A DNA stretch of 64,000 nucleotides, from NCBI RefSeq assembly GCF_000488275.1, contig NZ_KI530763.1, forward strand, positions 1 to 64,000, given 5' to 3'. Within the stretch, counting starts at the first letter, position 1. Every line of letters begins with the position of its first letter. The notes beneath the pieces were generated by a model. It saw only the letters and a program-made list of their open reading frames with translations, did no database searches and was not told where the DNA came from. Of the stretch, positions 20,963 to 38,558 are shown piece after piece. The translations under genes and the position numbers were made by a program. Source of the stretch: Acinetobacter brisouii CIP 110357 (GTDB lineage: Bacteria > Pseudomonadota > Gammaproteobacteria > Pseudomonadales > Moraxellaceae).

Positions 20963-20994
20963 TAAAAAACAGCATCCTCGGATGCTGTTTTTTT
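20963..20994. terminator. Bidirectional terminator between secF and the APE-type cluster
   Basis: ACAGCATC (20969-20976) pairs with GATGCTGT (20981-20988) around CTCG, with an A-run before and a T-run after. It therefore serves secF on the plus strand and the converging phosphopantetheinyl transferase gene on the minus strand. Confidence 0.9.
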
Positions 20995-21625
20995 ATGGCT
21001 GAATATAGCCAATCTCAGGGTTTAAACCCTCACGATCCCGCCATGCCACAGTACACAGTGCATCCTTCCAGACAAAGTGTTGGTACCTAAATCGACCCAG
21101 TTCGGAATGCTGACAATACCCCTGTTGCTGCCCTGTCACTACTTGGGTATTTAAGGTATTTAAACTCAAACGGATACCCAAACCACAGGCTTTTAAAATC
21201 GCTTCTTTGGCTGTCCAGACCTGAAACCAGTATTCAGTGTTTTGTCCAGTGGCTTGCCAATGCTGATATTCTTCAGGATGAAAAGCATGTTCTGCCAGTG
21301 CCTGAAAACGCACTTTGCGCTGTAACGATTCAATATCAACGCCAACATCCTGCACCTGCTGACTCACGGCCAACGCATAATGCTCACGACCATGACTATG
21401 GTTAAATGCCAGTTCAGGATAATTTCCCAAGTAGGGTTTGCCATGCTCAGTTTTGTCAAACTGCAAATCCTGTTCAGTAACATTGAGCTGTCGTGCCAGA
21501 ATCTCGGCCCGATAGGCATAAATCAGTTGCTGCTGATACTGCTTAAAGGCGGCCCGATGTGCAAAAGCATCAGGTTGTTTCGGAGCAAGTCGGGACAGCA
21601 ACTGCAAATAAATTTCAATTTTCAT
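20993..21625 (-). CDS. 4'-phosphopantetheinyl transferase (Sfp/HetI type) at the end of the APE-type cluster
   Basis: The enzyme moves phosphopantetheine from coenzyme A to a serine of carrier proteins. The 210-residue protein has the family motifs in order: KPYL, then FNHSHGREHYALAV, DVGVDIESLQRKV (Mg-binding Asp and Glu) and WTAKEAILKACGLGI (the F/W-x-x-KE-x3-K motif). It most likely activates the two acyl carrier proteins at 36611-37138, which have the DSID acceptor site. A 335-base gap with a hairpin element separates it from the rest of the cluster, so it may have its own promoter. Confidence 0.92.
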   Translation of the reverse strand: MKIEIYLQLLSRLAPKQPDAFAHRAAFKQYQQQLIYAYRAEILARQLNVTEQDLQFDKTEHGKPYLGNYPELAFNHSHGREHYALAVSQQVQDVGVDIESLQRKVRFQALAEHAFHPEEYQHWQATGQNTEYWFQVWTAKEAILKACGLGIRLSLNTLNTQVVTGQQQGYCQHSELGRFRYQHFVWKDALCTVAWRDREGLNPEIGYIQP

Positions 21626-21960
21626 ATTGCTGCCCCTTTAACCGAAGTGATTCAATATCATAAAGTGAGAGAAATATTTCTAAAAAATCAGAGAGGTAAA
21701 AACGTCATCTGCAACTGTTCGAGCCAGAAAACTATTCGCAATATACTGGTTTTGCAATATTTTTGATAAAAACTAACATTAAGCGAGTTTTGCAGTGAGG
21801 AGCATTGCTCCGCAAGGTGGTTTTGCCTACTTTTCCCGAAAGAAAAGTAGGTCTTACTGAAAGTTAATCCTGAAATCCAAGTCAAAGTAATAAGATTCCG
21901 TCATGAGGATTCATTTTTTAATATCTGAATCAACAAGAGCTTTCACCAAACTCATATAAC
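21626..21960. other. Non-coding spacer containing a REP-like element
   Basis: About 335 bases without a credible gene. It should contain the promoter of the phosphopantetheinyl transferase (minus strand) and the 3' end of the cluster transcript. The only structure is the pair of hairpins listed separately at 21799-21851. Confidence 0.5.
21799..21851. repeat. Twin-hairpin, REP-like intergenic element
   Basis: Two inverted repeats lie side by side. GGAGCA-T-TGCTCC is at 21799-21811. A 10-base arm, CCTACTTTTC, at 21826-21835 pairs with GAAAAGTAGG at 21842-21851 around CCGAAA. Such paired palindromes between genes look like bacterial dispersed palindromic repeats. I found no second copy in this window, so copy number is unknown. 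Confidence 0.5.
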
Positions 21961-22395
21961 TTAAAATTTAACAAGATCGCCTTTCAACGCAACCCCTGCC
22001 ATAGCTGTGCCTTTATGGCATTCATAAGTCGTGGTGCTGCGTGTTTCATGTGACTTGTAGTAACTGACAATATTGATCACAACATTAGCACCCTGTTGTT
22101 TTGCTGCGGTTTGCAGTTGAATCAATGCTGAACGCAGCACCCAATCGCAGGATTCCTCTGCTGACTTCATAAAACCATTGGTCTTTTTATTGGTCACTAC
22201 GCCTTTTTGCAACACCCGACCGCCTGAGTTCGTTCCTGCCAAATAGAATTTGACTGAACCATCCAGCGTACCATCTGCCATTGCGCGTTGCACTGCCTGC
22301 TTGAAGTCTAGTTGATGAACATCATCGGCAGCATGAGCAGACATACTCAATCCCATAAACAATGCTGTAGTAAATGCCAGTTTTTTTATCATCAT
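21961..22395 (-). CDS. Small exported protein of unknown function in the APE-type cluster
   Basis: The 144-residue protein has a clear signal peptide (MMIKKLAFTTALFMGLSMSA, cleavage after AHA near residue 22). The mature part has two cysteines, in EESCDWVL and TYECHKGT, that could form a disulfide in the periplasm, and a GANVVINIVSYYK segment. Similar proteins are found in databases under the misleading name excinuclease; nothing here suggests DNA repair. AAGGA lies six bases before the ATG. It is ten bases after the last ketosynthase gene, so it is probably co-transcribed and may act in export or anchoring of the product. Confidence 0.7.
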   Translation of the reverse strand: MMIKKLAFTTALFMGLSMSAHAADDVHQLDFKQAVQRAMADGTLDGSVKFYLAGTNSGGRVLQKGVVTNKKTNGFMKSAEESCDWVLRSALIQLQTAAKQQGANVVINIVSYYKSHETRSTTTYECHKGTAMAGVALKGDLVKF

Positions 22396-22404
22396 GTTTT
22401 ATCC

Positions 22405-23628
22405 TTATAAATAACGCTTAAAAATCAGTGAGGTATTAATCCCGCCAAAAGCAAAATTATTGGTCATGATGGTCTGTGCCATCATTGGTTTTGGTTGTTG
22501 TCGAATATAGTCCAGTTCCCCACACAATGGGTCAACCTGATCAAGGTTTAGCGTCGGAATAAATTGCTGACGCAGCAGCATTTCAATACTCAGCCATGCT
22601 TCAATCGCACCACATGCCCCTAAAGTATGCCCAAAATAACTTTTTAACGAGCTAATCGGTTTATAACCCAACACCTGTGCCGTAGCTTGGGTTTCTGCCA
22701 CATCACCATGATCGGTGGCTGTGCCATGCGCATTCACATAATCAATCTGTTCAGGGGGAATCTGAGCATCTTTCAGTGCCAATTGCATGCAACGCACCAT
22801 GCTTGCCTGATCGGGACGGGTGACATGTGTGCCATCGGTATTGCTGGCATAGCCAATGATTTCGGCATAAATTTGCGCGCCACGCGCCTGAGCATGTTCC
22901 AATTCTTCTAAAATCAGACAGCCTGCCCCTTCACCAATCACCAGACCATCACGCTTGGCATCAAACGGTCGTGGTGACTGTTCGGGATGTTCATTCATGC
23001 CACTGGTGGCAAGCAGTACATCAAACACGCCTGCACCTGGTGCGCTGAGTTCTTCTGCACCACCCGCCAGCATCACGGTTTGTTTGCCATATTTAATCGC
23101 TTCATACGCCTGACCAATCGACATCGAACCTGAGGTACAGGCGCTTGAAGTCGGCAAGGATAAACCCTTGATTCCGAAATGCACGGTCATGTTGACCAGA
23201 CTGGTGTGTGCCATCATCCGGATGTAGGTTGTGGCATTCATCTGGCTCATGTCATTGTCCAGAATCATGCGCCCCATTTCACACACTGCATCGACACTGC
23301 CTGCAGATGAACCGTAAGCCACGCCTGTTTCGCCACTGCTTAAAACTGGATGATTTAGCAAGCCTGCATCTTCGAGCGCACGCTCGGCACTAATCACCGA
23401 CATCAGTGCCACGCGCCCCATGCCGCGCATCACTTTACGATTGAAATGCTTTGGAATATCAAAATGATCAACGGGTGCACCCAAACGCGTGCGCAAGTCA
23501 GTGTATTGATCCCATTCCTGCATATAGCGCACGCCACTTTGACCTTGGGCAAATTTGGCAAAAATTTCATCGGCGGTTTGCCCCAATGAAGTAATGCCTG
23601 ACATGCCTGTCACCACAACCCGTTTCAT
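22405..23628 (-). CDS. apeR: Beta-ketoacyl-ACP synthase (ApeR-like)
   Basis: This condensing enzyme extends the polyene chain from malonyl units on an acyl carrier protein. The 407-residue protein has the full thiolase-fold catalytic triad: Cys in LPTSSACTSGSMSIG, His in YVNAHGTATDHGD and His in SLKSYFGHTLGACGA, with the gatekeeper-like TNNFAFGG near the end. It is close in length to FabF. By position (last of KS-DH-KR-KS) it matches the ApeR gene of aryl-polyene clusters. Its ATG overlaps the stop of the ketoreductase gene. FabF itself is the main alternative name, but the context argues for a dedicated enzyme. Confidence 0.88.
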   Translation of the reverse strand: MKRVVVTGMSGITSLGQTADEIFAKFAQGQSGVRYMQEWDQYTDLRTRLGAPVDHFDIPKHFNRKVMRGMGRVALMSVISAERALEDAGLLNHPVLSSGETGVAYGSSAGSVDAVCEMGRMILDNDMSQMNATTYIRMMAHTSLVNMTVHFGIKGLSLPTSSACTSGSMSIGQAYEAIKYGKQTVMLAGGAEELSAPGAGVFDVLLATSGMNEHPEQSPRPFDAKRDGLVIGEGAGCLILEELEHAQARGAQIYAEIIGYASNTDGTHVTRPDQASMVRCMQLALKDAQIPPEQIDYVNAHGTATDHGDVAETQATAQVLGYKPISSLKSYFGHTLGACGAIEAWLSIEMLLRQQFIPTLNLDQVDPLCGELDYIRQQPKPMMAQTIMTNNFAFGGINTSLIFKRYL

Positions 23629-24353
23629 CAGATCAGCCCCCCATTGACCGAGATCACCTGACGGGTGATATAGGCAGCTTCATCTGAACACAGGAATTTC
23701 ACCACACTTGCCACTTCGTCGACCTGCCCCATGCGCTGCATTGGAATCATTTTTAAGGCATGCTCTTTGACTTCATCCGTGACCATTTCAGTTTCGATCA
23801 GCCCTGGTGCAACACAGTTCACCGTGATTTTGCGTTTTGCCAGTTCCATTGCCAGTGCTTTGGTTGCACCGATCAAGCCTGCTTTTGCTGCACTGTAGTT
23901 GACCTGTCCGCGGTTGCCCATAATGCCTGATACAGATGACATGGTGACGATACGCCCGCCTTTTCTGAGGTGAATCATCGGCATGATCAGCGGTTTGACC
24001 ACGTTATAAAAACCGTCCAGTGAAGTGGAGATCACTTCATCCCAGTCGTTGTCGGTTAATGCAGGAAATGCGCCATCGTGGGTTAGGCCAGCATTGAGCA
24101 CCACCCCATAAAATGCACCATGCTGCTCTATGTCCTGTTCCAGACATTCACGCACCGCTTCTCGGTCATTGACATCGAATTGCAATGCATGACTGCTCCG
24201 TCCTAAAACCTGAATCTGACTGACAACCGCTTCGGCATCCTGCATACGCGAACGGGCGTGTACCGTGATATCAAAGCCTGCAGCGGCTAACTGTAGTGCA
24301 ATCGCACGTCCAATGCCACGGCTAGAACCCGTGACCAAAATTCGTCTGTTCAT
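23628..24353 (-). CDS. apeQ: 3-ketoacyl-ACP reductase (ApeQ-like)
   Basis: This reductase uses NADPH to reduce the 3-keto group after each condensation. The 241-residue short-chain dehydrogenase has the cofactor motif TGSSRGIGRAIA (residues 8-19), LNAGLTHD, the catalytic Ser in MSSVSGIMGNRGQ, YSAAKAGLIGATK (Tyr-x3-Lys), and VAPGLIETEM, typical of FabG. It lies between dehydratase and ketosynthase genes with a four-base overlap (ATGA) on the downstream side and a five-base gap on the upstream side. The order matches ApeQ. Confidence 0.9.
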   Translation of the reverse strand: MNRRILVTGSSRGIGRAIALQLAAAGFDITVHARSRMQDAEAVVSQIQVLGRSSHALQFDVNDREAVRECLEQDIEQHGAFYGVVLNAGLTHDGAFPALTDNDWDEVISTSLDGFYNVVKPLIMPMIHLRKGGRIVTMSSVSGIMGNRGQVNYSAAKAGLIGATKALAMELAKRKITVNCVAPGLIETEMVTDEVKEHALKMIPMQRMGQVDEVASVVKFLCSDEAAYITRQVISVNGGLI

Positions 24354-24358
24354 GACGC

Positions 24359-24790
24359 TTATTTTCCTAATTGTGGTGGTTCATGGGGCTGGTAAACACT
24401 GAGTACAGCAGAAATACAATGCTGCCCATAGTGCAGTTCACACTGGAACTGTCCCAAGCCTTCATGCAGATAAGATTGCTGCGCCCGAATGGTCAAAGTC
24501 GACCCAAGGGCAAAATGTGATACAGGCAACTGCATTTTGCGTGTACCGAGTAAATAACCAATTTTTGGCGCTTCGCCACCCTTCTGTCCATGCCGACCTG
24601 CAAAAACACTCACGCTTTGTGCCATGATTTCAATCGCTGCCCAGCTTGGCAAACCTTCCGCTTCGCAAAACATCAGCTCAGGACGAATGGTCAGTTGTGT
24701 TACGGCATAGTCTTCGCCAAATTCGCTGACGGTATCGACAAACACCATGGGTGCCTGATGGGGAATAAATGCCGTTGCATCCTGAATCAT
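24359..24790 (-). CDS. apeP: Hotdog-fold 3-hydroxyacyl-ACP dehydratase (ApeP-like)
   Basis: It is expected to remove water from the 3-hydroxyacyl intermediate to give the conjugated double bond. The 143-residue protein has FIPHQAPMVFVDTV near the N-terminus and LPSWAAIEIMAQSVSVFAG, where the Glu of IEIMAQ corresponds to the catalytic acid of FabZ. The GHFP segment that carries the FabZ histidine is not present here. The fused hotdog domain at the end of the AMP-ligase protein (34414-36081) shows the opposite pattern. The ATG overlaps the stop of the upstream ketosynthase gene. Confidence 0.82.
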   Translation of the reverse strand: MIQDATAFIPHQAPMVFVDTVSEFGEDYAVTQLTIRPELMFCEAEGLPSWAAIEIMAQSVSVFAGRHGQKGGEAPKIGYLLGTRKMQLPVSHFALGSTLTIRAQQSYLHEGLGQFQCELHYGQHCISAVLSVYQPHEPPQLGK

Positions 24791-25986
24791 GTCTGCTGCC
24801 TTGCAAAAATTAGACTAATGTTACTGCCGCCAAAGGCAAAGGAATTACTCATGGCATAATCCACGCGCTGGTTATGCTCAGGTTGCTGCACATAGTTCTG
24901 ATCTGTCAGTTCAGGGTCAATCTGCCCTGCCTGATGCAGTGGTAACCAAGACTGATCGAGCAGAACTTGTTGGCAAATAAAGGCTTCAAGCGCACCTGCC
25001 GCCCCCAGACAATGCCCTGTTTGATGCTTGGTACTACTCAAATGTACCTGATGTGAACCAAATACCTGACGCACCGCTTTAATTTCCATCGCATCATTTT
25101 GCGGAGTGGCCGTACCATGCAAGTTTAAATAACCAATTTGTGTAGCCTGCAAACCTGCGGCAGTCAATGCCTGTTGCATGGCTTGCTGTGCTCCGCGCCC
25201 TTCAGGATGTGGCGCAGAAATATGCCATGCATCCATCGACTCGCCTGTCCCGACTAGCATCACAGGGGCAGCGTCTTTACTGAGCAAAAATAAACTGGCA
25301 GCTTCGCCGATATTAATACCATCTCGATCTACGCCACATGGGCGGCAAATGCTATTCGACAGGCTTTCCAGACTGTTAAAACCGTTCAGGGTCAACTGAC
25401 ACAAGGTATCTACCCCACCAACCAAAACTGCATCGGCAAGATCGGCACTGAGTAAACGCTGCCCTGCAGCAAAGGCTTTGGCACTGGATGAACAAGCAGT
25501 AGAAATGCTATAGGCAATGCCTTCCCAGTTTAAATACTGTTTCAAGCCTTGCGCGAGGCTGTTCATTTCCTGTTTCTGGTAGAAAATCGGCGGATGCGCC
25601 TGACCTGCATAATACTGTTGCAAGAGCTGTTCATTATCGGCAATGCCCGAGGTCGATGTCCCAACGATCACTGCCAAACGCTGACGGGGAAACTGTGCAG
25701 TATAGGCTTGCACTTGGGCTTCAATTTGCTGTAAAGCGGTAATTGCCAAACGTAAATTGCGTGAGTCCAAAACCTGTAAAGCATCGGAGAAATCCTGCTG
25801 AAATACCTCGCCTGTATAAGCACCGACCAGACAGCTTTGCCCCAAGAGCAAATCTTCACGAGTACTCAGGCAACTTTCACGCTGGGTCAGGGCTTGGCGC
25901 ACGTCCTGTGCACTGGCACCTAAAGCCGACAAACTGGCACTACACTGAATGCCGACTGCGGCTAAATCTTGAATCTGTGCTGACAT
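24787..25986 (-). CDS. apeO: Beta-ketoacyl-ACP synthase (ApeO-like)
   Basis: This is the second full condensing enzyme of the cluster. The 399-residue protein has Cys in YSISTACSSSAKAFAAG, His in YLNLHGTATPQND and Lys/His in SSTKHQTGHCLGAAGALEA, so it should be catalytic and is not a chain-length factor. SNSFAFGGSNISLI is at the C-terminus. By order (lipoprotein, KS, DH, KR, KS) it matches ApeO. In aryl-polyene systems ApeO is reported to pair with a small ketosynthase-like partner; a candidate partner is at 37923-38558. Its ATG overlaps the stop of the DUF3261 gene by one base. Confidence 0.88.
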   Translation of the reverse strand: MSAQIQDLAAVGIQCSASLSALGASAQDVRQALTQRESCLSTREDLLLGQSCLVGAYTGEVFQQDFSDALQVLDSRNLRLAITALQQIEAQVQAYTAQFPRQRLAVIVGTSTSGIADNEQLLQQYYAGQAHPPIFYQKQEMNSLAQGLKQYLNWEGIAYSISTACSSSAKAFAAGQRLLSADLADAVLVGGVDTLCQLTLNGFNSLESLSNSICRPCGVDRDGINIGEAASLFLLSKDAAPVMLVGTGESMDAWHISAPHPEGRGAQQAMQQALTAAGLQATQIGYLNLHGTATPQNDAMEIKAVRQVFGSHQVHLSSTKHQTGHCLGAAGALEAFICQQVLLDQSWLPLHQAGQIDPELTDQNYVQQPEHNQRVDYAMSNSFAFGGSNISLIFARQQT

Positions 25987-26522
25987 TAATTCCCTACCTG
26001 TAAAGCATCATCCATCGGGCTAAATACAATGGTGTACGGTACATGTAAATTATCCAGTTGAATACTGTGTGCCTGCTTTTGAATGGTCAGTACATGTTGT
26101 TTGGCAATCTCGATCTGCTGGGTATTGTCCTGCTGTTTCACTTCGACCTGTGGTTGCCCTGCTTCTGCAAACTTGGGATAGGTTGCAAACAAAATATCAC
26201 GTACCACAAAGTCAAACGGTAACAAACGCATTTGCTCAATCCGCTGTTCCACCCTGACCTTTTGCCCATCAAATTGCAGTTTAAACAGGACTTGTCCTGT
26301 CAGGCTCAGTCCCAACATGCTGAGGTTTTTACCTTGCTGCTGCTGATAGAGCAAGAAACTAAAACTTTGCTGTTTCCACTGTACTTCGACCTGATCTTGG
26401 CGCTGGTACTGCTGTGCCTGCCACTGCGGTGCAGCAAGTGCAGGTGCTTTCGGATAAAACGACTGACAGGCACTCAGGCTCAGCGCCAGCCCCAACAGTA
26501 CAATCCGTCCATATCTGTGCAT
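25986..26522 (-). CDS. DUF3261-type outer-membrane lipoprotein of the APE-type cluster
   Basis: The 178-residue protein has a lipoprotein signal peptide, GRIVLLGLALSLSACQ, with the lipobox LSAC (Cys19). The rest is a beta-rich, Gln-rich periplasmic domain (LGLSLTGQVLFKLQFDG) resembling DUF3261 proteins, which recur in aryl-polyene clusters. The residue after Cys is Gln, not Asp, so outer-membrane sorting by Lol is expected. The role is unknown; together with the LolA-like carrier and the exporter it may deliver or hold the lipid-like product. It is one base from the flavoprotein stop and overlaps the next gene by one base. Confidence 0.75.
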   Translation of the reverse strand: MHRYGRIVLLGLALSLSACQSFYPKAPALAAPQWQAQQYQRQDQVEVQWKQQSFSFLLYQQQQGKNLSMLGLSLTGQVLFKLQFDGQKVRVEQRIEQMRLLPFDFVVRDILFATYPKFAEAGQPQVEVKQQDNTQQIEIAKQHVLTIQKQAHSIQLDNLHVPYTIVFSPMDDALQVGN

Positions 26523-26523
26523 A

Positions 26524-27828
26524 TTAGCCTCCTAAAAGTTGTTCCTGAGGCAAACCTTCACGGCAATATTCGGCAATCATACTGAGACGACGTTTAGCAT
26601 TTTTATGGATCGGGTTACTCATATCCCACGCATAACCTGCCAAAAGTGATGACACCATTTCACGCAGTTTAACATGCTGATCCGAGCTAAAAACCACCTC
26701 CTGAAATTCGCCGCTATACCATGACTCTACATAGGCACGGAACACCTGAATGCCTCGACGCAAGGGTTGTTCATACTCTGCTAACCAGTCCACCGCTTGC
26801 CCTTGTAACGCCCGTTCCACCAATGGCACAGCTAAACTGGATGACTTCAACGCGATGGTTACGCCCGATGAAAACACAGGATCTAAAAACTCACCCGCAT
26901 TGCCGAGCAAGGCGTAATTTTTCTGCGCCAAATGTTTGACATTGGCTGAATACCCCACCAGTGTCCGCACAGGGGTATCAAACTGGGCACGGCGCAGCAG
27001 ATGCGATAGCGCAGGATCATCCTGTAAAATCATTTTAAACAAAGATTCTAAAGCTTCAGGCGTATCTGTACCTGTATAACCATAATGATCAAAGAAACTT
27101 TGCTCTGCCACTACCCCAAATGAAGAGCGACCATCGGCAAATGGAATCAGCCAGTACCATGCACGGTGATCTTTCTCATGCACGGTAATCAGGATTTTTT
27201 CCCGATCAAATTCAGGGTCATCCAAAATACCATCTTCAATATGGGTAAACACGGCACGGCGCACTGGGAAATCAGATGGGCTTTCCAAGTCTAGAAATTT
27301 TGGCAAGATGCGCCCAAAACCACTGGCATCTAGCAAAAACTTGCCCTGAATCTGATAGACATTTTCAGCTTCATCGCGCACGGTGAGTACAGGCTGCTCA
27401 GCCTCAACATCGACCGCGATTACTTCATGCCCATAGCGAATGTCTGTGCCATAGGTCTGTGCCTGATTCGCCAGAAGCTGGTCAAATGGCGCACGGCGTA
27501 CCTGCCACGTCGTGCCTGGCCCTGCGCTAAACTTCTCACGAAAATCATAAAAACTGCGCTGTTTGCCGCGCAAAAAACTCGCGCCATTTTTATACTGGAA
27601 GGCAAATTCATCGACATGCTCACGTACCGTGTCGAGCAAGCCCGCTTCTTCTAAAAACACCATACATTGTGGCAATAACGATTCACCAATCGAGAAACGT
27701 GGAAAATGCTGACGTTCCAAAATCACGACATCATAGCCTTTCTTGCGTAGCAAAGCTGCTGCTGAACTGCCCGATGGGCCTGCCCCAATAATCAAAACAT
27801 CGGTGTGCTGTAATTGTAATTCGGTCAT
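26524..27828 (-). CDS. FAD-dependent oxidoreductase (tryptophan-halogenase-like / geranylgeranyl-reductase-like)
   Basis: The 434-residue flavoprotein begins with a dinucleotide-binding fold, VLIIGAGPSGSSAAALLRKK (residues 12-31), then the FAD region VVILERQHFPRFSIGESLLP, and later LLGNAGEFLDPVFSSGVTIA, the second FAD motif of this superfamily. The sequence FPRFSIGESLLP is shared by halogenases and related monooxygenases. I do not see the tryptophan-halogenase WxWxIP motif in canonical form (the segment here is AWYWLIPFADG). It may hydroxylate or desaturate the aryl or polyene group. It overlaps the exporter gene by four bases. Confidence 0.8.
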   Translation of the reverse strand: MTELQLQHTDVLIIGAGPSGSSAAALLRKKGYDVVILERQHFPRFSIGESLLPQCMVFLEEAGLLDTVREHVDEFAFQYKNGASFLRGKQRSFYDFREKFSAGPGTTWQVRRAPFDQLLANQAQTYGTDIRYGHEVIAVDVEAEQPVLTVRDEAENVYQIQGKFLLDASGFGRILPKFLDLESPSDFPVRRAVFTHIEDGILDDPEFDREKILITVHEKDHRAWYWLIPFADGRSSFGVVAEQSFFDHYGYTGTDTPEALESLFKMILQDDPALSHLLRRAQFDTPVRTLVGYSANVKHLAQKNYALLGNAGEFLDPVFSSGVTIALKSSSLAVPLVERALQGQAVDWLAEYEQPLRRGIQVFRAYVESWYSGEFQEVVFSSDQHVKLREMVSSLLAGYAWDMSNPIHKNAKRRLSMIAEYCREGLPQEQLLGG

Positions 27829-31196: not shown

Positions 31197-32742
31197 CTGC
31201 ATTCTCCACTTGGTTGAACCATGCACTATTCAACAACTGTAACTGCTCAAAACGATCAACAATCTGTTGCAAATCGTACTGTAATGGTCGGTCTTCTTTT
31301 ACAAGAGTAAAGCTCTGCAACGTCCACGCAACAAATTGCTGCAATACAGGACTGAGTTGCTCGGTCAGTCCACGCAAATGAATCGCCTGCACACTGGCAC
31401 AGCACAGTGCCGCCACCACTTGTTCAGTCAGCACCAGCACACGGGTTGCATCACGCGCGGCAATGGTGCCCATGCTAACTTTGTCTTGGTTATGGCATTC
31501 GGTTGAGCGTGAGAAAATAGAGGCTGCTAAAGTTTGCTTCAAGGCTTCGGCTGTCCAAGCCGACACCCCGATTTGTACCGCCTTAAAACCATGATTCAGC
31601 GGTAAACGCTCGGCTTCTGCACCTGTCAAATTGCGTGGCAAGCCATGATTCATTTTATGATCCACCAACTGCGCCATCTGGCGATCCAACAAATCGGCAA
31701 AATTCGCGACCATTAGTTTCAGGCTATCCATGGCTTGGGCAATGTGCCCGCCATAAAAATGTCCGCCATGTAGCACGCGTAAATTCACAGGATCAATCAG
31801 CGGATTGTCATTACTCGAATTCAGCTCATTTTCAATAAACTGACGCAGCCAGACTTTGGAATCTTCAAATACCCCGATCACATGCGGCGCACAGCGCAGC
31901 GAATAGCGGTCTTGCAAACGTGGGCTTTGACGCTCGGTTTGTACTTCTGAATTCAGTACCTGACGTAAAATGCAGGCAATTTTTTGTTGCCCGACATGCG
32001 GTTTCTGGGCAAAAAGCACTTCATCAAAATGACTCGGATTACCTTCGAGTGCCAAGACATTCAGCGCAGTAATCAAAGTTGCCGCATAAGCCGTTTGCTC
32101 AGCTTTTTTATAATTCAAACAGGCAATTGCTGTCATCACTGCTGTGCCATTCATCAATGCCAAACCTTCTTTCGGGCGTAGGCAAAGTGGCTCCATCTGA
32201 TAATGCTGATAAACCTGCTGCATCGGAACAATCTGCCCTTGCCAGTACACATCACGCTCACCAACCAGTGCCCCTGCGATATACGACAACGGGGTTAAAT
32301 CGCCACTTGCACCGACAGAACCTTCCGATGGAATCACAGGCACAATATTTTCATTCAGCATCCATACCAAGCGCTCAAGCAGTGCCAGTGACACGCCCGA
32401 ATACCCCCGTGCCAAGGAACATAAACGAACCAGCAACACCGCACGTGACGTCACCAAGTCGAGATTCTCACCCATGCCACAGCCATGAAAACGCGAAAGC
32501 TGGAGTGGTAACTCATTCACCTGATGTTTTGGAATTTCGACCAGACAGGAATCGCCATAACCTGTGGTCACACCATAAATCACACCATCTTCATCGAGCA
32601 GTTGATCGAGAAAATCTGCGCCACGTTGAATCAATTCACGCCATTCTTTTGAGCTTGGCAGTGCCACAGGCATCTGCTGTTGTGCAACCTGCACCACCTG
32701 TTTGATGCTTAATGGTTGTTCACCAACAATAAGCGTTGTCAT
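31186..32742 (-). CDS. Aromatic amino acid / histidine ammonia-lyase family enzyme
   Basis: The enzyme removes ammonia from an amino acid by means of the MIO cofactor, which forms by cyclisation of Ala-Ser-Gly. That triad is at residues 145-147 in SEGSVGASGDLTPLSY. The catalytic Tyr is in VIYGVTTGYGD (Tyr56), and NGTAVMTA, NDNPLID and the later SMGTIAARD are also conserved. It is 518 residues, close to HutH. The substrate-selectivity pair reads Phe85-His86 in my hand alignment, while bacterial tyrosine lyases have His-Leu or similar and histidase Ser-His. Within this cluster a role in making a cinnamate or coumarate starter is more likely than histidine breakdown, as no hut genes are near. 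Confidence 0.85.
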   Translation of the reverse strand: MTTLIVGEQPLSIKQVVQVAQQQMPVALPSSKEWRELIQRGADFLDQLLDEDGVIYGVTTGYGDSCLVEIPKHQVNELPLQLSRFHGCGMGENLDLVTSRAVLLVRLCSLARGYSGVSLALLERLVWMLNENIVPVIPSEGSVGASGDLTPLSYIAGALVGERDVYWQGQIVPMQQVYQHYQMEPLCLRPKEGLALMNGTAVMTAIACLNYKKAEQTAYAATLITALNVLALEGNPSHFDEVLFAQKPHVGQQKIACILRQVLNSEVQTERQSPRLQDRYSLRCAPHVIGVFEDSKVWLRQFIENELNSSNDNPLIDPVNLRVLHGGHFYGGHIAQAMDSLKLMVANFADLLDRQMAQLVDHKMNHGLPRNLTGAEAERLPLNHGFKAVQIGVSAWTAEALKQTLAASIFSRSTECHNQDKVSMGTIAARDATRVLVLTEQVVAALCCASVQAIHLRGLTEQLSPVLQQFVAWTLQSFTLVKEDRPLQYDLQQIVDRFEQLQLLNSAWFNQVENADVR

Positions 32743-33671
32743 TTTTTAATATTCCAAAACTGATAAAAATTAAACCATTGATACGGCGCACGTATGCAAT
32801 GCCACTCCAGCAAATCCACATACTTGCGTGTCACGATCGCCATCTCAGGCAAACGTGCTTTACGCGGCAAGTCGATGCATTCGGCAATCGGATGGAAATG
32901 CACTTCAAAATTATGCTGTACGCGGTAACAAAAACTGGCAATCACAGGCACTTTGAGCAAGTTGGCTAAAATCCATGCGCCTTGTGACCACGGTGCCTCT
33001 TGCCCTAAAAAACTCAACATCTGTATACGCTGCGAATGAATCGGCACACGGTCAGCAGCAATCATCACCCACTCACCTGCATCGAGTTTGTCCTGCAAAA
33101 TCATGGTAGTTTCCATGCCCAGTTCATCCACCGAAATCAGCGAGACATTGGACTTAGAACTGATTTTTCGAAGGAAGGCGTTAAACTTGTCAGCATGCTT
33201 CTGATAGACCAAGACATTGATTTTCTGTTGATGTTCAGACTTGATCGCACGTAACAATTCGATATTGCCAAAGTGTGATACTAGAATAATCAATCCCTGC
33301 CCATAGTGACGACGCAAATGTTCATGACCATGAATTTGTAGACGCTGCTCGGAAATTTCTCCGAGCCAGCCCTGCATTTTGTCGACAATGGCTTCTGCAA
33401 AGACAATAAAATGTCGATAGCTATGCTGCCATGTCGGCATCTGCTGAAATGGTGATTGCTGCCCCGCAAAACGATGCAACCTTTGCAAATAATCCAGTGA
33501 AGCCTGACGCGCACTTGGCGACAGTAGCCAGTACCACATCACCACCACATACAGCAGCGCCTGAATTAGGCAGCGCCCAAACAGGCGATATAGCCAAAGC
33601 ACCAGCAGCAAAGGCAGTACACCACCTTTTTCCTTGATTTCATTCCATGCAGGTGGGCGCGGATCAGACAT
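32739..33671 (-). CDS. LpxL/HtrB-family acyltransferase
   Basis: The 310-residue inner-membrane protein resembles lipid A late acyltransferases. It has a membrane anchor at about residues 18-40 and 58-70, the HX4-like catalytic pattern in ILVSHFGNIELLRA, VMIAADRVPIHSQRI and FLGQEAPWSQGAWILA, then IASFCYRVQHNFEVHFHP. The start at 33671 gives MSDPRPPAWNEIKEKGG and an ATGA overlap with the glycosyltransferase. It likely transfers an acyl group, perhaps the polyene chain itself, to a lipid acceptor. In E. coli-type clusters an acyltransferase of this kind is associated with the glycosyltransferase. Confidence 0.82.
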   Translation of the reverse strand: MSDPRPPAWNEIKEKGGVLPLLLVLWLYRLFGRCLIQALLYVVVMWYWLLSPSARQASLDYLQRLHRFAGQQSPFQQMPTWQHSYRHFIVFAEAIVDKMQGWLGEISEQRLQIHGHEHLRRHYGQGLIILVSHFGNIELLRAIKSEHQQKINVLVYQKHADKFNAFLRKISSKSNVSLISVDELGMETTMILQDKLDAGEWVMIAADRVPIHSQRIQMLSFLGQEAPWSQGAWILANLLKVPVIASFCYRVQHNFEVHFHPIAECIDLPRKARLPEMAIVTRKYVDLLEWHCIRAPYQWFNFYQFWNIKK

Positions 33672-34417
33672 CAATCCCGACCTTTCAGGCGCTGTGGCAA
33701 TAAGCGTGGTAAGCGGCACAACATGCCTGCAAACAGACGTGAATGCATTTTGGTCAGTTCCCAGTTATCTTCCCATAACCGAAAATGTGAAATACCCTGT
33801 TCAGGATAAATTACAGGTGTTGCCACATTTTCAAAATGCACGCCCACCCAGCTCAGACGTACCAGAATTTCACTGTCAAAGCCCATGCGCGCAGGCAACT
33901 CGACCTGATCCATAATCGCCAGTGTAGCTGCCAGTGGGTACACGCGAAAACCGCACATACTGTCATGGATTTCTAAGGATAGACTGTTAATCCACACCCA
34001 GATATGCGAGGCATAACGTCCATACAAGCGCTTTTTCGGGACACTTTCATCAAAAATCGGCTGACCAATCACCATCGCTTCAGGATGCTGCTCCGATACT
34101 GCCAGAAACTTGGCAACATCCTGCCAGTGGTGCTGACCATCGGCATCAAGCTGCAAGGCATGGCTACAGCCCAGTTCGGCTGCACGACGTAATCCTGTCA
34201 TCACTGCCTGCCCTTTCCCCATATTTTGCGCATGCTCAACCAGCACGACATCACGATATTGTGCAGCCAAGTCGCGTAAAATCTGCGAGGTTTCAGCATT
34301 ACTGCCATCATTCACCAGCACGATCGGCAAGGCAAACTGGCTCAGATACTCAACCAAAGCAGCAAGATAATGCGGATGGTTATACACAGGAATCATCAGG
34401 GCAGCACGATAACTCAT
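33671..34417 (-). CDS. Family 2 glycosyltransferase
   Basis: The 248-residue GT-A enzyme starts MSYRAALMIPVYNHPHYLAA, then has LPIVLVNDGSNAET (DG of the nucleotide site), NMGKGQAVMTGLRRA, HALQLDADGQHHWQDV (DxD-type DADGQH) and HDSMCGFRVYPLAA. These are the hallmarks of polyprenyl-phosphate or lipid glycosyltransferases of family 2. It overlaps both neighbours by four bases. It probably adds a sugar to a lipid precursor that anchors the polyene. Confidence 0.87.
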   Translation of the reverse strand: MSYRAALMIPVYNHPHYLAALVEYLSQFALPIVLVNDGSNAETSQILRDLAAQYRDVVLVEHAQNMGKGQAVMTGLRRAAELGCSHALQLDADGQHHWQDVAKFLAVSEQHPEAMVIGQPIFDESVPKKRLYGRYASHIWVWINSLSLEIHDSMCGFRVYPLAATLAIMDQVELPARMGFDSEILVRLSWVGVHFENVATPVIYPEQGISHFRLWEDNWELTKMHSRLFAGMLCRLPRLLPQRLKGRD

Positions 34418-36081
34418 GACGTTGCATTCTCCTCAACTGCAAACAGCAACCGCCCTGAAGCAATATTTTTGTCTGCAAACTTTAACTCAAAACTGACTTT
34501 ATGCTGCTTACGGCTCAGACTGAGCTGCAACACATGATAAGGGCGAATCAGGTCTTGAAACTTCAGTTGCTCAAAGCCCTGACACCAACGTAAGTCTGCC
34601 CAAAGTTCGCGTGAAAAATGTTGTAAAAATGCAATCTGACCAACCCCAGGATAAATCGGAAAATTGGGGAAATGTCCTTTGAAACAGGCCAGTTCAGGTG
34701 GGAACTCTAACTGGAAAATGTGCTGCTCATCCTGTTGCTGTCGTGACAAAATCACAGGCTGGCTGCCCTCTTGAAACAGCTTGATCAGGTCGGATTTATT
34801 CAGCTTGGACTGACTATTGACAGGTAACTGACTCAAAAAACGCCACTGGCGAGGAATGGCAATCCGCTCTAGCAACGGCTGTAACTGTTGCTTGAGCTGG
34901 GTGACAAACTGATGTTTGTTCTGCTGTTGCAGTGTTTGTCGGGCAGTATCATTTAGCACAGCCACACAGACCAAAAGTTGACGCTGCTCACGCTCGATCA
35001 GCAAGACGTGACACTGATTGATTGCCTCTAACTGAAGAATTTTACTTTCGATTTCATCGAGACTCAGGCGTTTTTCTTCAAGTTTTACAATACGATCCAT
35101 ACGCCCTAACAAATGAAAGGCACTCTGTAGATTGTTTGGTTCAAGCAGTTCAATACGATCACCTGTTGCCACCCAGTCTATGTCACAGGCATGTGGACTA
35201 CGCATCCACAACTGCTGTTGCTCGTCACTACGGACTTCGACATCGGCGAAAGGCTGCCACACAGCATGATCGGCTGCACGGTGGGCAATGCCTCCTGTCT
35301 CAGAGCTGCCAAAAATTTCAATGATCGGTACATTGATACTTGCACGCACGCCATCTTCAAGTTTCCCACCCGAAGAATAGAGTGCTGCACAATGTTCAAG
35401 CAGCACATCACTCGGCCAGCGTTTCAGTAATGCAGGGCTTGAAATGACGTAGTTCGGCAGATTGATTTCAGCAAAACGCTGTTGCAATTGAACAACATAT
35501 TCGGGGTAAATCAACTGCTCGCGGTAGAAACTGCGTCCAGTAGCAAGCGGCAACAAGACCTTGAACAGCAAACCGTAAATATGTTGATGGCTTACTGTGG
35601 CAATCGCGACAGTAGCTTCAGGTAAGCTAAAACTTTGTGCCAGCCCCTGAACTTCACACAGTAACTGCTGTAAGGAACGTAAAATCTGCTTGGGCGTGCC
35701 TGTAGAGCCTGAGGTAAAAAATACAATTTCACTGTCAGTCAGCAATGAATCAGACAAAGACTGAATCGGCTCAAGCGTTAAAACCCGCTGGCGTTGAATA
35801 AAACCAATGCCCTGCTCTGCCAACTGCTGTTGTAACTGCTGCACCTGATTGGGCGGTAAAATTAACCGTTTATGCGCCAACAACACTGCAAAAAACAGCA
35901 CCAGAAACTCGTAACTGTCGTGTTGCCACAAGGCAAAACTCGATTCAGGCAATTGCTGAATCGCCTGTGACTGACTGGCAACGTCCTGCCAAAATTCAGC
36001 AAAATTCAACGTGCGTAATTGTGCATCGAAACACAGCGTAGCATCTGCGGTTAGATAATTATTAAAATGACAAAGATTCAT
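34414..36081 (-). CDS. AMP-ligase fused to a C-terminal FabA/FabZ-like hotdog domain
   Basis: This 555-residue protein combines two activities. Residues 1 to about 440 form an adenylate-forming domain: VFFTSGSTGTPKQILRS (P-loop), SSPALLKRWP, EIFGSSETGGIAHR and TGDRIELLEP, then FHLLGRMDRIVKLEEKRLSL. It should activate an aryl acid as the adenylate and load it on a carrier protein. Residues about 455-555 resemble a dehydratase domain with FPPELACFKGHFPNFPIYPGVGQIAFLQH. The GHFP His is present, but the acid that follows PGV-x3 in FabZ is Ala here. In E. coli-type clusters these functions are, as I recall, encoded by two genes (ApeH and ApeI). Confidence 0.85.
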   Translation of the reverse strand: MNLCHFNNYLTADATLCFDAQLRTLNFAEFWQDVASQSQAIQQLPESSFALWQHDSYEFLVLFFAVLLAHKRLILPPNQVQQLQQQLAEQGIGFIQRQRVLTLEPIQSLSDSLLTDSEIVFFTSGSTGTPKQILRSLQQLLCEVQGLAQSFSLPEATVAIATVSHQHIYGLLFKVLLPLATGRSFYREQLIYPEYVVQLQQRFAEINLPNYVISSPALLKRWPSDVLLEHCAALYSSGGKLEDGVRASINVPIIEIFGSSETGGIAHRAADHAVWQPFADVEVRSDEQQQLWMRSPHACDIDWVATGDRIELLEPNNLQSAFHLLGRMDRIVKLEEKRLSLDEIESKILQLEAINQCHVLLIEREQRQLLVCVAVLNDTARQTLQQQNKHQFVTQLKQQLQPLLERIAIPRQWRFLSQLPVNSQSKLNKSDLIKLFQEGSQPVILSRQQQDEQHIFQLEFPPELACFKGHFPNFPIYPGVGQIAFLQHFSRELWADLRWCQGFEQLKFQDLIRPYHVLQLSLSRKQHKVSFELKFADKNIASGRLLFAVEENATS

Positions 36082-36083
36082 GG

Positions 36084-36626
36084 TTAATGTAGTCGTTGTT
36101 GGCGCTTACGCAAAATAAACTCAGCAGTGAGCAAAATACCCATGAGCAAATAAGAAATTAAACCGTTATACAGCACCCAAACCTGCATCGGGGCAAAATA
36201 TACCGTCCATAGCGCAATCAGTGCATTGATCAGGAAAAAACCACACCAGACTTTAGTAACCTGACGTGTCCAACGTACACCCGACTCAGGTAAATCAGGT
36301 TCAAAAACGCGGGCAAAGCGTTCAATCATGGAAGGAGGTCGCCAAAGCGTCAATGCAAAAATACACAGTGTCGCCAGACTCATGGCAACAGGATACAGCT
36401 TGAGCCATGCCTGATTGCGCAGTAGCAAACTCAAGCCACCACACAGCATCGCCAGATAAGTCAGAGGTAACAGTGGGCTTTGTCGGGCACTAAAATAACG
36501 AATAACCCCGACCACAAGCAGCAACAGGCTAATTTCCCAAAGCTTGCCATGTGACAAACTCCAGCCCACCAAAAACGGATATGCCACCAACACGATGGCA
36601 GTCGCGACCTTTAACAGCTTGGGCAT
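36084..36626 (-). CDS. Polytopic membrane protein of the APE-type cluster (COG4648-like)
   Basis: The 180-residue protein is almost wholly hydrophobic, with about five to six membrane helices (VATAIVLVAYPFLVGWSL, ISLLLLVVGVIRYF, LTYLAMLCGGLSLLL, AMSLATLCIFALTL, VWCGFFLINALIALWTVYFA, LISYLLMGILLTAEF). Similar proteins recur in aryl-polyene clusters but have no known function. It overlaps the stop of the acyl carrier protein gene by 16 bases and precedes the AMP-ligase gene by two bases. It may anchor the biosynthetic complex at the inner membrane. Confidence 0.75.
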   Translation of the reverse strand: MPKLLKVATAIVLVAYPFLVGWSLSHGKLWEISLLLLVVGVIRYFSARQSPLLPLTYLAMLCGGLSLLLRNQAWLKLYPVAMSLATLCIFALTLWRPPSMIERFARVFEPDLPESGVRWTRQVTKVWCGFFLINALIALWTVYFAPMQVWVLYNGLISYLLMGILLTAEFILRKRQQRLH

Positions 36627-36871
36627 TCTTTTGACATGTTTTGAATGACTAACACCACATCTTCGATGGTACGTACATTTTTAAAGTCTTCAGGTTTAAC
36701 CTGCTTGCCTGTCAATTGCTTGATTTTGACAATCAAATCAACAGCATCAATGCTATCAACATCGAGATCCGAATATAGATTCGAGTTCATTTGAATTTTT
36801 TCAGGCTCAATCTCAAACAGATCTTCCATCCACTCACGTAACTGAGCCAAAATATGCTCTTGAGTTAACAT
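36611..36871 (-). CDS. Acyl carrier protein
   Basis: The 86-residue protein carries the phosphopantetheine site in SDLDVDSIDAVDLIVKI (Ser about residue 37). Its acidic helix structure is typical of ACP. It is one of two carriers in the cluster, separated by nine bases from the next. One may hold the aryl starter and the other the growing chain, but this cannot be told from sequence. It should be activated by the phosphopantetheinyl transferase at 20993-21625. Confidence 0.9.
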   Translation of the reverse strand: MLTQEHILAQLREWMEDLFEIEPEKIQMNSNLYSDLDVDSIDAVDLIVKIKQLTGKQVKPEDFKNVRTIEDVVLVIQNMSKECPSC

Positions 36872-36880
36872 TTTTCCCCC

Positions 36881-37138
36881 TTAAGCTGCCTGACTTTCAA
36901 CCAACTTCACTAAACTTTGAATTGAACGGAAATGCTGCTTGGTGTCCTCTGACTCAGCATTTAAATGAATGTTATAGCGTTTTTTCAGCGCCAAACCTAA
37001 CTCTAAGGCATCAATTGAATCCAGCCCTAAACCTTCGTTAAACAAAGGGGCTTCATCATCAATATCGTCAATTGAAATATCCTCGAGTGCCAAAACATCG
37101 ATAATCATCTGTTTTAGCTCGTCAGCAAGATTGCTCAT
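36881..37138 (-). CDS. Acyl carrier protein
   Basis: The 85-residue protein starts MSNLADELKQMIIDVLALED and has the attachment site in NEGLGLDSIDALELGLAL (Ser about residue 40). An ATG at 37144 would add MY; I chose 37138 because it overlaps the stop of the upstream acyltransferase gene (ATGA), the pattern seen across this cluster. It differs from the neighbouring carrier by a longer loop before helix 2 and a KKRYNIHLNAESEDTKQHF region, so the two are not recent duplicates. Confidence 0.88.
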   Translation of the reverse strand: MSNLADELKQMIIDVLALEDISIDDIDDEAPLFNEGLGLDSIDALELGLALKKRYNIHLNAESEDTKQHFRSIQSLVKLVESQAA

Positions 37139-37929
37139 GTACATAACTCTTGATTGAATAACTGGTGTAAATACTGGTTTAAAGCACGCACATTTTTAGG
37201 CGTGACTGTCGTATCTGTTAAAATGTCGTCGACCCGAATTGGATCAAGCACATTGATTTGAATATGAAAAGGCTCACTCGGAATGTGATACCACTTCTCA
37301 TTTTTGGTCAAGGTCGATGGGCTACAGCGAATCACCACAGGACGAATCGGCACTTGTGCCCGTAAGGCAATATTGGCGGCGCCACGCTGAAAATCATTGA
37401 GTGATTGATTCTTTTCAGTGCGTGTTCCTTCAGGAAAAATAATTAGCGATGCCGCATCTGCTTGTTGCAAGCGCTGCACACAGTCCTGAATAAACTGCTC
37501 AGAACCTGCATTTAAAATATATGCTGCGTTTTGCACAGGGCCTCGGGTAAATGGATTTTGCCACAACGCCTGTTTCACCACACAATTCGCTTTAGGCATT
37601 AACCCGATCAATAACATCACGTCAATTAATGTCGGATGATTGGCAATTACCAGTTCTCTCTGACTATTTTGCAGCTTATCCAAACCTTCAACACTGTAAG
37701 TCATGACACCAAGTTTGGTCATGCTTTCGATAAAACCATGAAAACCATGCCGAATCACCTGCTGGGTTAACTCAACACGGCGTTTTGGATCAGACGTGTA
37801 AAGTCTTACCGCAGGTGCAATCACGGTTCCAATGGCAACACCGCCCACCCCAAAACTGGCAAAACCCAAGCCTGTCGCCGCCATCCGCCATAGATAGTTA
37901 AGTTGCTGTTTGGACTTGCCTTTTAACAT
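37135..37929 (-). CDS. PlsC-like 1-acylglycerol-3-phosphate O-acyltransferase family protein
   Basis: The 264-residue protein has an N-terminal membrane segment (LGFASFGVGGVAIGTVIAP, about residues 20-40). The PlsC motifs follow in order: VIANHPTLIDVMLLIG (the NHxxxxD site with Asn-His-Pro), then LIIFPEGTRTEKN (FPEGTR) and VPIRPVVIRC. Start 37929 is an ATG in a region with GGGAAG; the longer TTG start at 37974 lies inside the previous gene. It overlaps that gene by seven bases. It could acylate the lipid anchor for the polyene. Confidence 0.85.
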   Translation of the reverse strand: MLKGKSKQQLNYLWRMAATGLGFASFGVGGVAIGTVIAPAVRLYTSDPKRRVELTQQVIRHGFHGFIESMTKLGVMTYSVEGLDKLQNSQRELVIANHPTLIDVMLLIGLMPKANCVVKQALWQNPFTRGPVQNAAYILNAGSEQFIQDCVQRLQQADAASLIIFPEGTRTEKNQSLNDFQRGAANIALRAQVPIRPVVIRCSPSTLTKNEKWYHIPSEPFHIQINVLDPIRVDDILTDTTVTPKNVRALNQYLHQLFNQELCT

Positions 37930-38558
37930 CGTTGCCACTTCCCTGATGCTGACTGTGGAGTACCCATTTGCCAAAACTGTAAAAACTCCTGTGCATCCTG
38001 CTCAGGAGGTTGATGACTGGTTTCTATTTTCAACACTGGATCAAACTGCACATTCGGCTCAGACAGACTGAGTACCGCTGCCACTGAAAAAGCATCAAAG
38101 CGATTCACCCCTTCATACACATCGGGTAAAGGCGCATCGTAATACACCACCAATGCACGCTGTGCTGTCGGATGCGTTTTCAAAAATGCATAGGCTTCAA
38201 CCACTGCTTCCGACCATGAACAGCTTAAGCTGGTCGATGGCGTAGCATCCTGATATAAAATAGAATATAAACCTGCTATAGCATTATGCACAGACGTGGA
38301 AAATTGTGTCGGTGATGGTGTATGACCTTGTAATACATCTTGTAAAATATTTAAGGTTTTTTGTTCATCACCAAAATGTGATGCCCAAACAATATAATCA
38401 ATGTCATAGGTTTGCAAAGCTTGTATGGCACCATTGAACGCCAGCTTAGCCAAAGTAGACAAACGGCGGCGCTGCATGGCAGGAATCGCCTGCAATACCT
38501 GCAAATCGGCATGATGATCTGTGCTATAGAGTTGTTGTACTTGTAGTTGTAAGTTCAC
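37923..38558 (-). CDS. Short ketosynthase-like protein (PF13723-type, candidate chain-length factor)
   Basis: The 211-residue protein looks like the N-terminal half of a ketosynthase: RRRLSTLAKLAFNGAIQAL, IVWASHFGDEQKTLNILQDV, TPSPTQFSTSVHNAIAGLYSI and TSLSCSWSEAVVEAYAFL. It lacks the downstream HGTAT and GHxxGAAG regions, so it cannot complete a normal triad. The position of the KS cysteine still reads Ser-Cys-Ser. Such short proteins are usual in aryl-polyene clusters and are described as chain-length factor partners of ApeO. It starts with GTG at 38558, six bases after GGGGTG, and is the first gene of the operon. Confidence 0.8.
   Translation of the reverse strand: MNLQLQVQQLYSTDHHADLQVLQAIPAMQRRRLSTLAKLAFNGAIQALQTYDIDYIVWASHFGDEQKTLNILQDVLQGHTPSPTQFSTSVHNAIAGLYSILYQDATPSTSLSCSWSEAVVEAYAFLKTHPTAQRALVVYYDAPLPDVYEGVNRFDAFSVAAVLSLSEPNVQFDPVLKIETSHQPPEQDAQEFLQFWQMGTPQSASGKWQRC

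Follow-up and report, generated by a model that had tools for sequence, protein, structure and literature searches.

The aryl-polyene gene cluster of Acinetobacter brisouii

The first 64,000 nucleotides of contig NZ_KI530763.1 from Acinetobacter brisouii CIP 110357 (assembly GCF_000488275.1), hereafter termed the window, contain 20 genes at positions 20993–38558, all on the minus strand, which by Pfam, NCBIfam and solved-structure matches represent one complete aryl-polyene (APE) set. This set comprises an ammonia-lyase and a starter-loading ligase, ApeH, in which certain residues covary with the presence of the lyase. A first-pass annotation had described a complete aryl-polyene-type cluster with an ammonia-lyase at this site, and all functions that it named were found there, although its list omitted a halogenase-like protein dependent on flavin adenine dinucleotide (FAD) at 26524–27828. 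Its count of eighteen genes, nearly all overlapping, has to be raised to 20; however, 18 of these do form a head-to-tail series that starts with the ApeC-type chain-length factor and ends with ApeR, in which neighbors are separated, or overlap, by no more than 52 bases when the first possible start codon of each gene is used. ApeR is followed by a secreted protein of 144 amino acids and, 335 bases further on, by a phosphopantetheinyl transferase. The genes of the cluster are as follows.

37923..38558, minus strand: ApeC-type chain-length factor, short ketosynthase partner (218.4 bits to 7f28_A, taken as A. baumannii ApeC; 57.2 bits to 6qsp_B)
37135..37974, minus strand: ApeD lysophospholipid acyltransferase (Pfam Acyltransferase)
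36881..37144, minus strand: ApeE/ACP1 acyl carrier protein, expected starter carrier (PP-binding; similarity and gene order)
36611..36871, minus strand: ApeF/ACP2 acyl carrier protein (PP-binding)
36084..36626, minus strand: ApeG membrane protein (similarity and gene order; weak IspA match)
34414..36081, minus strand: ApeH-ApeI fusion, starter-loading AMP ligase plus dehydratase domain, with Gly264 (AMP-binding, ApeI-like; covariation with the lyase)
33671..34417, minus strand: N-terminal part of ApeJ, family 2 glycosyltransferase (Glycos_transf_2)
32739..33719, minus strand: C-terminal part of ApeJ, LpxL-like acyltransferase (Lip_A_acyltrans)
31186..32742, minus strand: MIO ammonia-lyase of 518 amino acids, proposed tyrosine ammonia-lyase (Lyase_aromatic, 520.7 bits; Ala-Ser-Gly triad; F/Y-H...NQDK pattern)
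30765..31226, minus strand: ApeK thioesterase (4HBT_2; follows the lyase in nearly all relatives; with GTG, the earliest possible start, it overlaps the lyase by 41 bases)
30136..30801, minus strand: ApeL LolA-like periplasmic carrier (LolA)
27825..30161, minus strand: ApeM MMPL-type exporter (HpnN-like match far below the cut-off; MMPL homology, with 29% identity over the whole length to the MMPL protein of the E. coli CFT073 cluster)
26524..27828, minus strand: FAD-dependent halogenase-like enzyme, proposed head tailoring (Trp_halogenase, 76.8 bits; solved halogenases and 3nix; motifs conserved)
25986..26522, minus strand: ApeN DUF3261 lipoprotein, LolB-like role proposed (DUF3261)
24787..25986, minus strand: ApeO ketosynthase (572.8 bits to 7f28_B, taken as A. 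baumannii ApeO)
24359..24790, minus strand: ApeP dehydratase (Pfam ApeP-like, 82.5 bits)
23628..24353, minus strand: ApeQ ketoreductase (465.3 bits, full length, to 7caw_A)
22405..23628, minus strand: ApeR ketosynthase (711.6 bits to 7f27_A; residues Y135, C164 and F202 all retained)
21961..22395, minus strand: secreted protein of 144 amino acids (no Pfam match; found in most Acinetobacter loci)
20993..21625, minus strand: phosphopantetheinyl transferase, presumably for the carriers (ACPS, 64.7 bits)

The APE core is thus represented by the ApeO-ApeC pair, ApeR, ApeQ, two acyl carrier proteins (ACPs), the ApeP and ApeI dehydratases and the ApeH ligase, and lipid attachment and export by ApeD, ApeJ, ApeK, ApeL, ApeM and ApeN. 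The product of the operon is predicted from these genes to be a yellow aryl-polyene lipid for the outer membrane. The best solved matches of ApeR (7f27), ApeO and ApeC (7f28) and ApeQ (7caw) are entries which we take to be the A. baumannii APE structures of PMC8041823 and PMC8358021; 7caw is taken as ApeQ because PMC8041823 describes 6NRP, next in the same match list, as identical to its ApeQ, and 7f27 is taken as ApeR because it stands beside 7f28. Judged by these matches, the window cluster and the APE cluster of A. baumannii that was reconstituted in vitro are orthologs. The cluster of A. baumannii GC2 belongs to the same genus and shares the ApeH-ApeI fusion, described in PMC8041823, as well as orthologous ketosynthase, chain-length factor and ketoreductase. 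It is located where strain AYE has EngA (der) and AcpS (PMC8041823), and der likewise borders the window cluster. The word 'lyase' is absent from the main text of PMC8041823. The core genes and their order agree with the apeA-apeR cluster of E. coli CFT073. That cluster differs in lacking a lyase, in having a methyltransferase where the window has the FAD enzyme, and in carrying Ile at ApeH position 264.

To follow the cluster among its relatives, 65 Acinetobacter lyase loci, among 80 that were retained out of 152, were examined; here and below, the genomes compared are a sample whose members are related to one another. In all 65 the lyase sits within an APE cluster, though less completely in L057, which gave no matches to ApeD, ACP2 and the 144-residue protein and only a weak ApeR. 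The phosphopantetheinyl transferase had no match in 22 of the 65 loci, where the gene falls near the locus end. Since the same genes surround the lyase in these loci and in other genera, a chance assembly is excluded.

The lyase belongs to the MIO ammonia-lyases and precedes ApeK

The match of the lyase to Pfam Lyase_aromatic spans model positions 1–462 of 466, and no other Lyase_aromatic protein was found in the genome. Besides the Ala-Ser-Gly triad, it retains the Tyr, Asn, Gln, Arg and Phe that are the catalytic residues of ammonia-lyases with a 4-methylideneimidazole-5-one (MIO) group. The enzyme is 98% identical to the lyases of Acinetobacter sp. MB5 and ANC 4633, and the checked active-site residues are invariant across 98 distinct aligned lyases, the window copy (L001) excluded. 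ApeK was the next gene in 98 of the 100 lyases counted, 96 of which follow the acyltransferase (including the window copy and a gutted remnant in genome G113, see below) and two ApeH. The exceptions are L075, where ApeK was not detected, and L113, a HutH-type protein. In each of 38 new loci, the lyase and ApeK share a strand and are no more than 136 bases apart.

The family models place the lyase outside the named classes, as it scores below the cut-offs of the HutH, FlxA, BagA/FevW, phenylalanine ammonia-lyase and aminomutase models. HutH models do match at 381 and 395 bits, which would fit a histidine ammonia-lyase (HutH) lying in the cluster by chance. However, the respective cut-offs are 539 and 524 bits, and Gln replaces the Glu of the QEDH motif in 98 of 98 sequences, whereas five HutH-type controls (L122, L125, L127, L128 and L130) combine Ser-His with Glu. 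In a tree, all 37 APE-linked lyases, together with L129, separate from the other controls (support 99/78); L129 had been entered as a control and proved to be an APE-type lyase, and the control sequences L134, L136 and L138 were excluded because of wrong reading frames. Together with the nearly constant position before ApeK and the APE context, these results led us to reject a HutH function, which we regard as very improbable. Three other Acinetobacter proteins resembling histidine ammonia-lyases (L123, L124 and L126) align without the Ala-Ser-Gly triad and are perhaps relatives of ergothionase.

The lyase also differs from FlxA-type tyrosine ammonia-lyases, with 332.6 bits against a cut-off of 700 bits (NCBIfam NF053541). 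In the flexirubin pathway of Chitinophaga pinensis, an ammonia-lyase and a ligase (FlxA/FlxY) likewise start a type II polyene, and FlxA prefers tyrosine approximately 1000-fold (PMC3992019). With regard to the substrate of the window lyase, position 86 is His in all 98 sequences; at position 85, all 69 Acinetobacter lyases and 25 of the 29 others have Phe, and the remaining four have Tyr. Of the 38 held-out lyases, 32 have Phe and six have Tyr at position 85; His86, Gln419 and Lys421 are invariant. Phe (or Tyr) at this switch position is a phenylalanine-lyase residue. The enzyme might hence act on phenylalanine, with cinnamate as the starter and a phenyl head that stays unsubstituted or is later hydroxylated or halogenated by the FAD enzyme. 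We consider this unlikely, as His86 is shared with an aligned solved tyrosine aminomutase and the HutH-type controls, and as the distribution of methyltransferase genes (see below) points to a phenol. Tyrosine, converted to p-coumarate, is the most likely predicted substrate.

The lyase is widespread in Acinetobacter and was occasionally lost

The APE ketosynthase ApeO was found in 78 of 149 sampled Acinetobacter genomes, 75 of which carry a lyase ortholog (at least 73% identity); A. nosocomialis, A. pittii and A. calcoaceticus are among the species with the APE-type lyase, and the type-strain locus of A. baylyi (L005) has the cluster. A peculiarity of the strain was therefore rejected, as the lyase-bearing cluster is common throughout the genus. 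In two genomes, G097 and G076, the APE cluster lacks the lyase and ApeK directly follows the acyltransferase at the expected lyase site. In a four-protein tree both group with each other and with G014, which has the lyase, on a branch next to the remaining Acinetobacter sequences, and because of this joint grouping their lack of the lyase looks like one loss. In a third genome, the 80% complete draft G113, only a lyase remnant persists between acyltransferase and thioesterase (L089, 2992–3336; G113:C5). It matches residues 4–32 (weakly) and 109–141, and its neighbors on the contig are kept. Between its ApeN and FAD genes, the lyase-less cluster of G076 contains an additional open reading frame (L085, 6625–8280) that by eye resembles an AMP ligase.

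Beyond the genus, 36 of 369 genomes in a class-level draw passed the ApeP cut-off, and in 15 of them, the window's genome included, a lyase lies 5–7 kb from ApeP. In one more of the 36, G397 (L129, L105), about 56 kb separate an APE-type lyase from the ApeO-ApeP-ApeQ-ApeR part, so that the cluster seems to be split. A phylum-level draw of 398 genomes gave 71 above the ApeP cut-off, of which seven had already been used (the window's included), four weaker ones (G604, G613, G789 and G805) were excluded from the held-out set, and 60 were fetched; the lyase was present in 38 of these 60 further APE loci. Class and family counts are hand tallies.

APE clusters with a lyase are of a kind already in the literature. 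They have been published for Vibrio fischeri and Pseudomonas (PMC5851621, PMC8719888), which speaks against the suggestion of the first-pass annotation that the variant may be new, as does the orthology to the A. baumannii cluster. The cluster of V. fischeri ES114 (MIBiG BGC0000837) contains an ammonia-lyase as well, by its description in these two papers: PMC8719888, which uses the V. fischeri cluster as its reference, treats the ammonia-lyase as a characteristic APE gene, and the genes that PMC5851621 describes as common to that cluster include ammonia-lyase genes.

Residues of ApeH covary with the presence of the lyase

Ranked by graded counts, residue 264 of ApeH, which follows Glu-Thr-Gly, was the best of 440 columns in separating clusters with and without the lyase. 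In the discovery set, Gly264 was found in all ApeH proteins of lyase-bearing loci (69/69 in Acinetobacter, 26/26 in other genera) and in one of six non-Acinetobacter loci without the lyase. Among the Acinetobacter genomes that lost the lyase, G076 has Val264, while G097 and G113 keep Gly264. The prediction was then fixed in writing before the held-out loci were fetched. Of these 60 loci, 58 contained ApeH (L192 and L199 gave none), and Gly264 was present in 37 of 37 lyase-bearing and three of 21 lyase-less clusters, the remainder of the latter having Val (6), Ile (6), Ala (5) or Met (1). Fisher's test gave p = 3e-12, and 2e-6 without the 11 sequences L143–L153, which all belong to one family. 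When each family was counted once per state, Gly264 was present in 14 of 14 families with the lyase and three of nine without.

In a tree of 105 ApeH sequences, parsimony required 12 changes for the lyase and seven for Gly264, both falling on six branches. None of 75 lyase-bearing sequences lacked Gly264, and the concordance of 99 out of 105 was reached by none of 2000 simulated histories. A hidden lyase elsewhere in the genomes with lyase-less clusters that nevertheless have Gly264 (L159, L182 and L190) was rejected, as these genomes, searched along with 23 other lyase-less ones, hold only proteins of at most 35% identity.

Moreover, columns of 12 cluster proteins, without ApeC, ApeG, ApeN, LolA and the FAD enzyme, were scanned over 119 loci, 77 of them with the lyase. 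Columns with p < 1e-9 occurred in ApeH alone, headed by 264 (7.5e-20), 172 (1.2e-16), 237 (1.0e-15) and 168 (7.3e-12), and the best column outside ApeH was in the exporter (1.2e-9). By motif, these four positions presumably correspond to 330, 239, 301 and 235 in the specificity code of gramicidin synthetase; a profile search gave no residue-by-residue view of the pocket region. Since lyase and ApeH columns covary, the lyase product is probably the acid loaded by ApeH, much like FlxA and FlxY in the flexirubin pathway, which lends support to the cinnamate- or p-coumarate-type starter that the first-pass annotation had surmised. A search of titles and abstract starts, with most subscription journals outside its coverage, found no earlier description of this covariation, which is no proof of absence.

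The covariation also bears on another source of the starter. In work on E. coli, Xenorhabdus and A. baumannii the starter is 4-hydroxybenzoate, and the window cluster could likewise use 4-hydroxybenzoate supplied by UbiC, with the lyase topping up the supply or making another acyl group. The A. baumannii polyene was made in vitro from 4-hydroxybenzoate (PMC8041823, PMC8358021), APE clusters persist after loss of the lyase, and ubiC was found in the window's genome as well as in two lyase-less relatives, G076 and G097; it was not found in G113, which is 80% complete. However, the ApeH columns track the lyase far beyond those of the 11 other scanned proteins, which would be unexpected if the loaded acid were the same. 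We therefore consider UbiC as the source improbable, although somewhat less so than phenylalanine as the lyase substrate.

No locus combines a methyltransferase with the halogenase-like gene above the calling limits

E. coli ApeB had no match in the 65 Acinetobacter loci, which bears out the absence of a methyltransferase reported in the first-pass annotation; in its place, the window cluster contains the flavin halogenase-like gene. A catalytic Lys and the WxWxIP motif are the diagnostic residues of flavin-dependent halogenases. The window enzyme has both (K80 in FQYKNGASF, and WYWLIP), and Lys80 and WxWxIP are present in all aligned sequences (71 from Acinetobacter, 20 others); its nearest solved relative, 3nix, is annotated just as a flavoprotein/dehydrogenase. 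With calling limits of 150 bits for the methyltransferase and 250 bits for the FAD enzyme, the FAD gene was found in 70 of 70 Acinetobacter loci and the methyltransferase in none of them. Among 35 other loci, 17 have the FAD gene, seven the methyltransferase and 11 neither, and among the 60 held-out loci the corresponding numbers are 32, 12 and 16; both genes together were found in no locus. Below these limits, L156 and L158 have FAD matches of 79 bits beside the methyltransferase, and L145 and L200 have methyltransferase matches of 132 and 123 bits. This mutual exclusion may reflect shared ancestry as well as function.

The lyase and an ApeB-type methyltransferase occur together in 15 loci (six in the discovery and nine in the held-out set). 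The notion that the methyltransferase is missing because of the lyase was thus rejected; the exclusion is between methyltransferase and FAD enzyme. In addition, the joint occurrence suggests a phenolic head and hence tyrosine over phenylalanine as the lyase substrate, since a phenol is expected where the head is methylated. Halogenase genes are likewise present in the xanthomonadin and arcuflavin clusters (PMC3691225, PMC3949708), where the head is derived from chorismate via a XanB2-type enzyme (PMC3949708) and not from a lyase. By analogy with xanthomonadins, which carry bromine (PMC3691225), the head might be brominated or chlorinated.

Neighboring genes and further observations

The cluster lies between secDF/tgt-like genes and, at its opposite end, der, bamB and hisS-like genes, all named by eye. 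The 144-residue secreted protein adjoins the cluster in most Acinetobacter loci, and relatives of it lie by some clusters in other genera. In Acinetobacter rathckeae, two cluster copies on one contig (L058 and L059) show identical identities throughout and may be an assembly artefact. In the related Acinetobacter loci L084 (2416–2922) and L086, the region upstream of ApeC holds another ApeP-like dehydratase and one more ligase-like match. Elsewhere in the window's genome (G000:C1:1436627–1437028), an additional weak match to ApeP scores 24.1 bits, below the cut-off.

A proposed route to the polyene

In the proposed pathway, the MIO lyase would most likely deaminate L-tyrosine to p-coumarate, which the ApeH part of the fusion would adenylate and load on ApeE/ACP1, as suggested by the covariation. 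ApeO-ApeC and ApeR would extend this starter with malonyl units on ApeF/ACP2, ApeQ would reduce, and the ApeP-ApeI dehydratase would dehydrate the growing chain; the A. baumannii orthologs have been shown to carry out extension, reduction and dehydration in vitro, starting from 4-hydroxybenzoate (PMC8041823, PMC8358021). The halogenase-like FAD enzyme would modify the aryl head where other clusters methylate it. From what is known of the families, ApeK would release the acid, ApeD together with the ApeJ pair would join it to a lipid, and transport to the outer membrane would fall to ApeM, ApeL and ApeN.

We rather favor the reading of this locus as an APE operon with a lyase-made p-coumarate starter loaded by ApeH and a head tailored by the FAD enzyme. 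About evenly balanced is the broader idea that APE pathways can start by either of two exchangeable routes and that the pocket of ApeH in lyase-bearing clusters (Ile168, Leu172, Ser237 and Gly264) has been re-tuned, covarying repeatedly with the lyase, for p-coumarate over 4-hydroxybenzoate, with an independent switch by which the head is either methylated or halogenase-modified, never both. Several observations speak against the favored reading. The residue at the lyase switch is Phe (or Tyr), and the F/Y-H pattern is ambiguous between tyrosine and phenylalanine. The two clean losses and the remnant, with the other genes kept, imply that the lyase is dispensable for keeping the pathway. A first scan for columns that perfectly separate lyase-bearing from lyase-less ApeH found two, a number reached by 51 of 300 shuffles, and so gave no signal; Gly264 is retained in six of 30 lyase-less ApeH sequences; the tree test, which relied on FastTree, parsimony and a midpoint root, is crude; and the scan of 12 proteins pools discovery and held-out loci, so that the discovery sequences were reused. 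Moreover, the placing of the four ApeH columns in the acid pocket depends on the motif correspondence being right. Finally, the window's genome has ubiC as a source of 4-hydroxybenzoate, which A. baumannii ApeH loads in vitro (PMC8358021, PMC8041823).

Taken together, the observation made in the first-pass annotation is confirmed, and its interpretation is partly supported. It had suggested from the lyase that the product may be a distinct pigment lipid. However, 4-hydroxybenzoate with n malonyl units and p-coumarate with n-1 malonyl units give the same 4-hydroxyphenyl polyene backbone. Thus, no new pigment would arise from the lyase alone, as merely the origin of the first atoms differs, and a real difference in the head of the window product would stem from the halogenase-like enzyme.

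The combination of lyase and Gly264 provides a sequence rule that sorts APE clusters by their likely starter. If the pocket is re-tuned in this way and the A. baumannii cluster also has the lyase, the published reconstitution would have used a non-native starter, and lyase-bearing systems may be studied with the wrong one.

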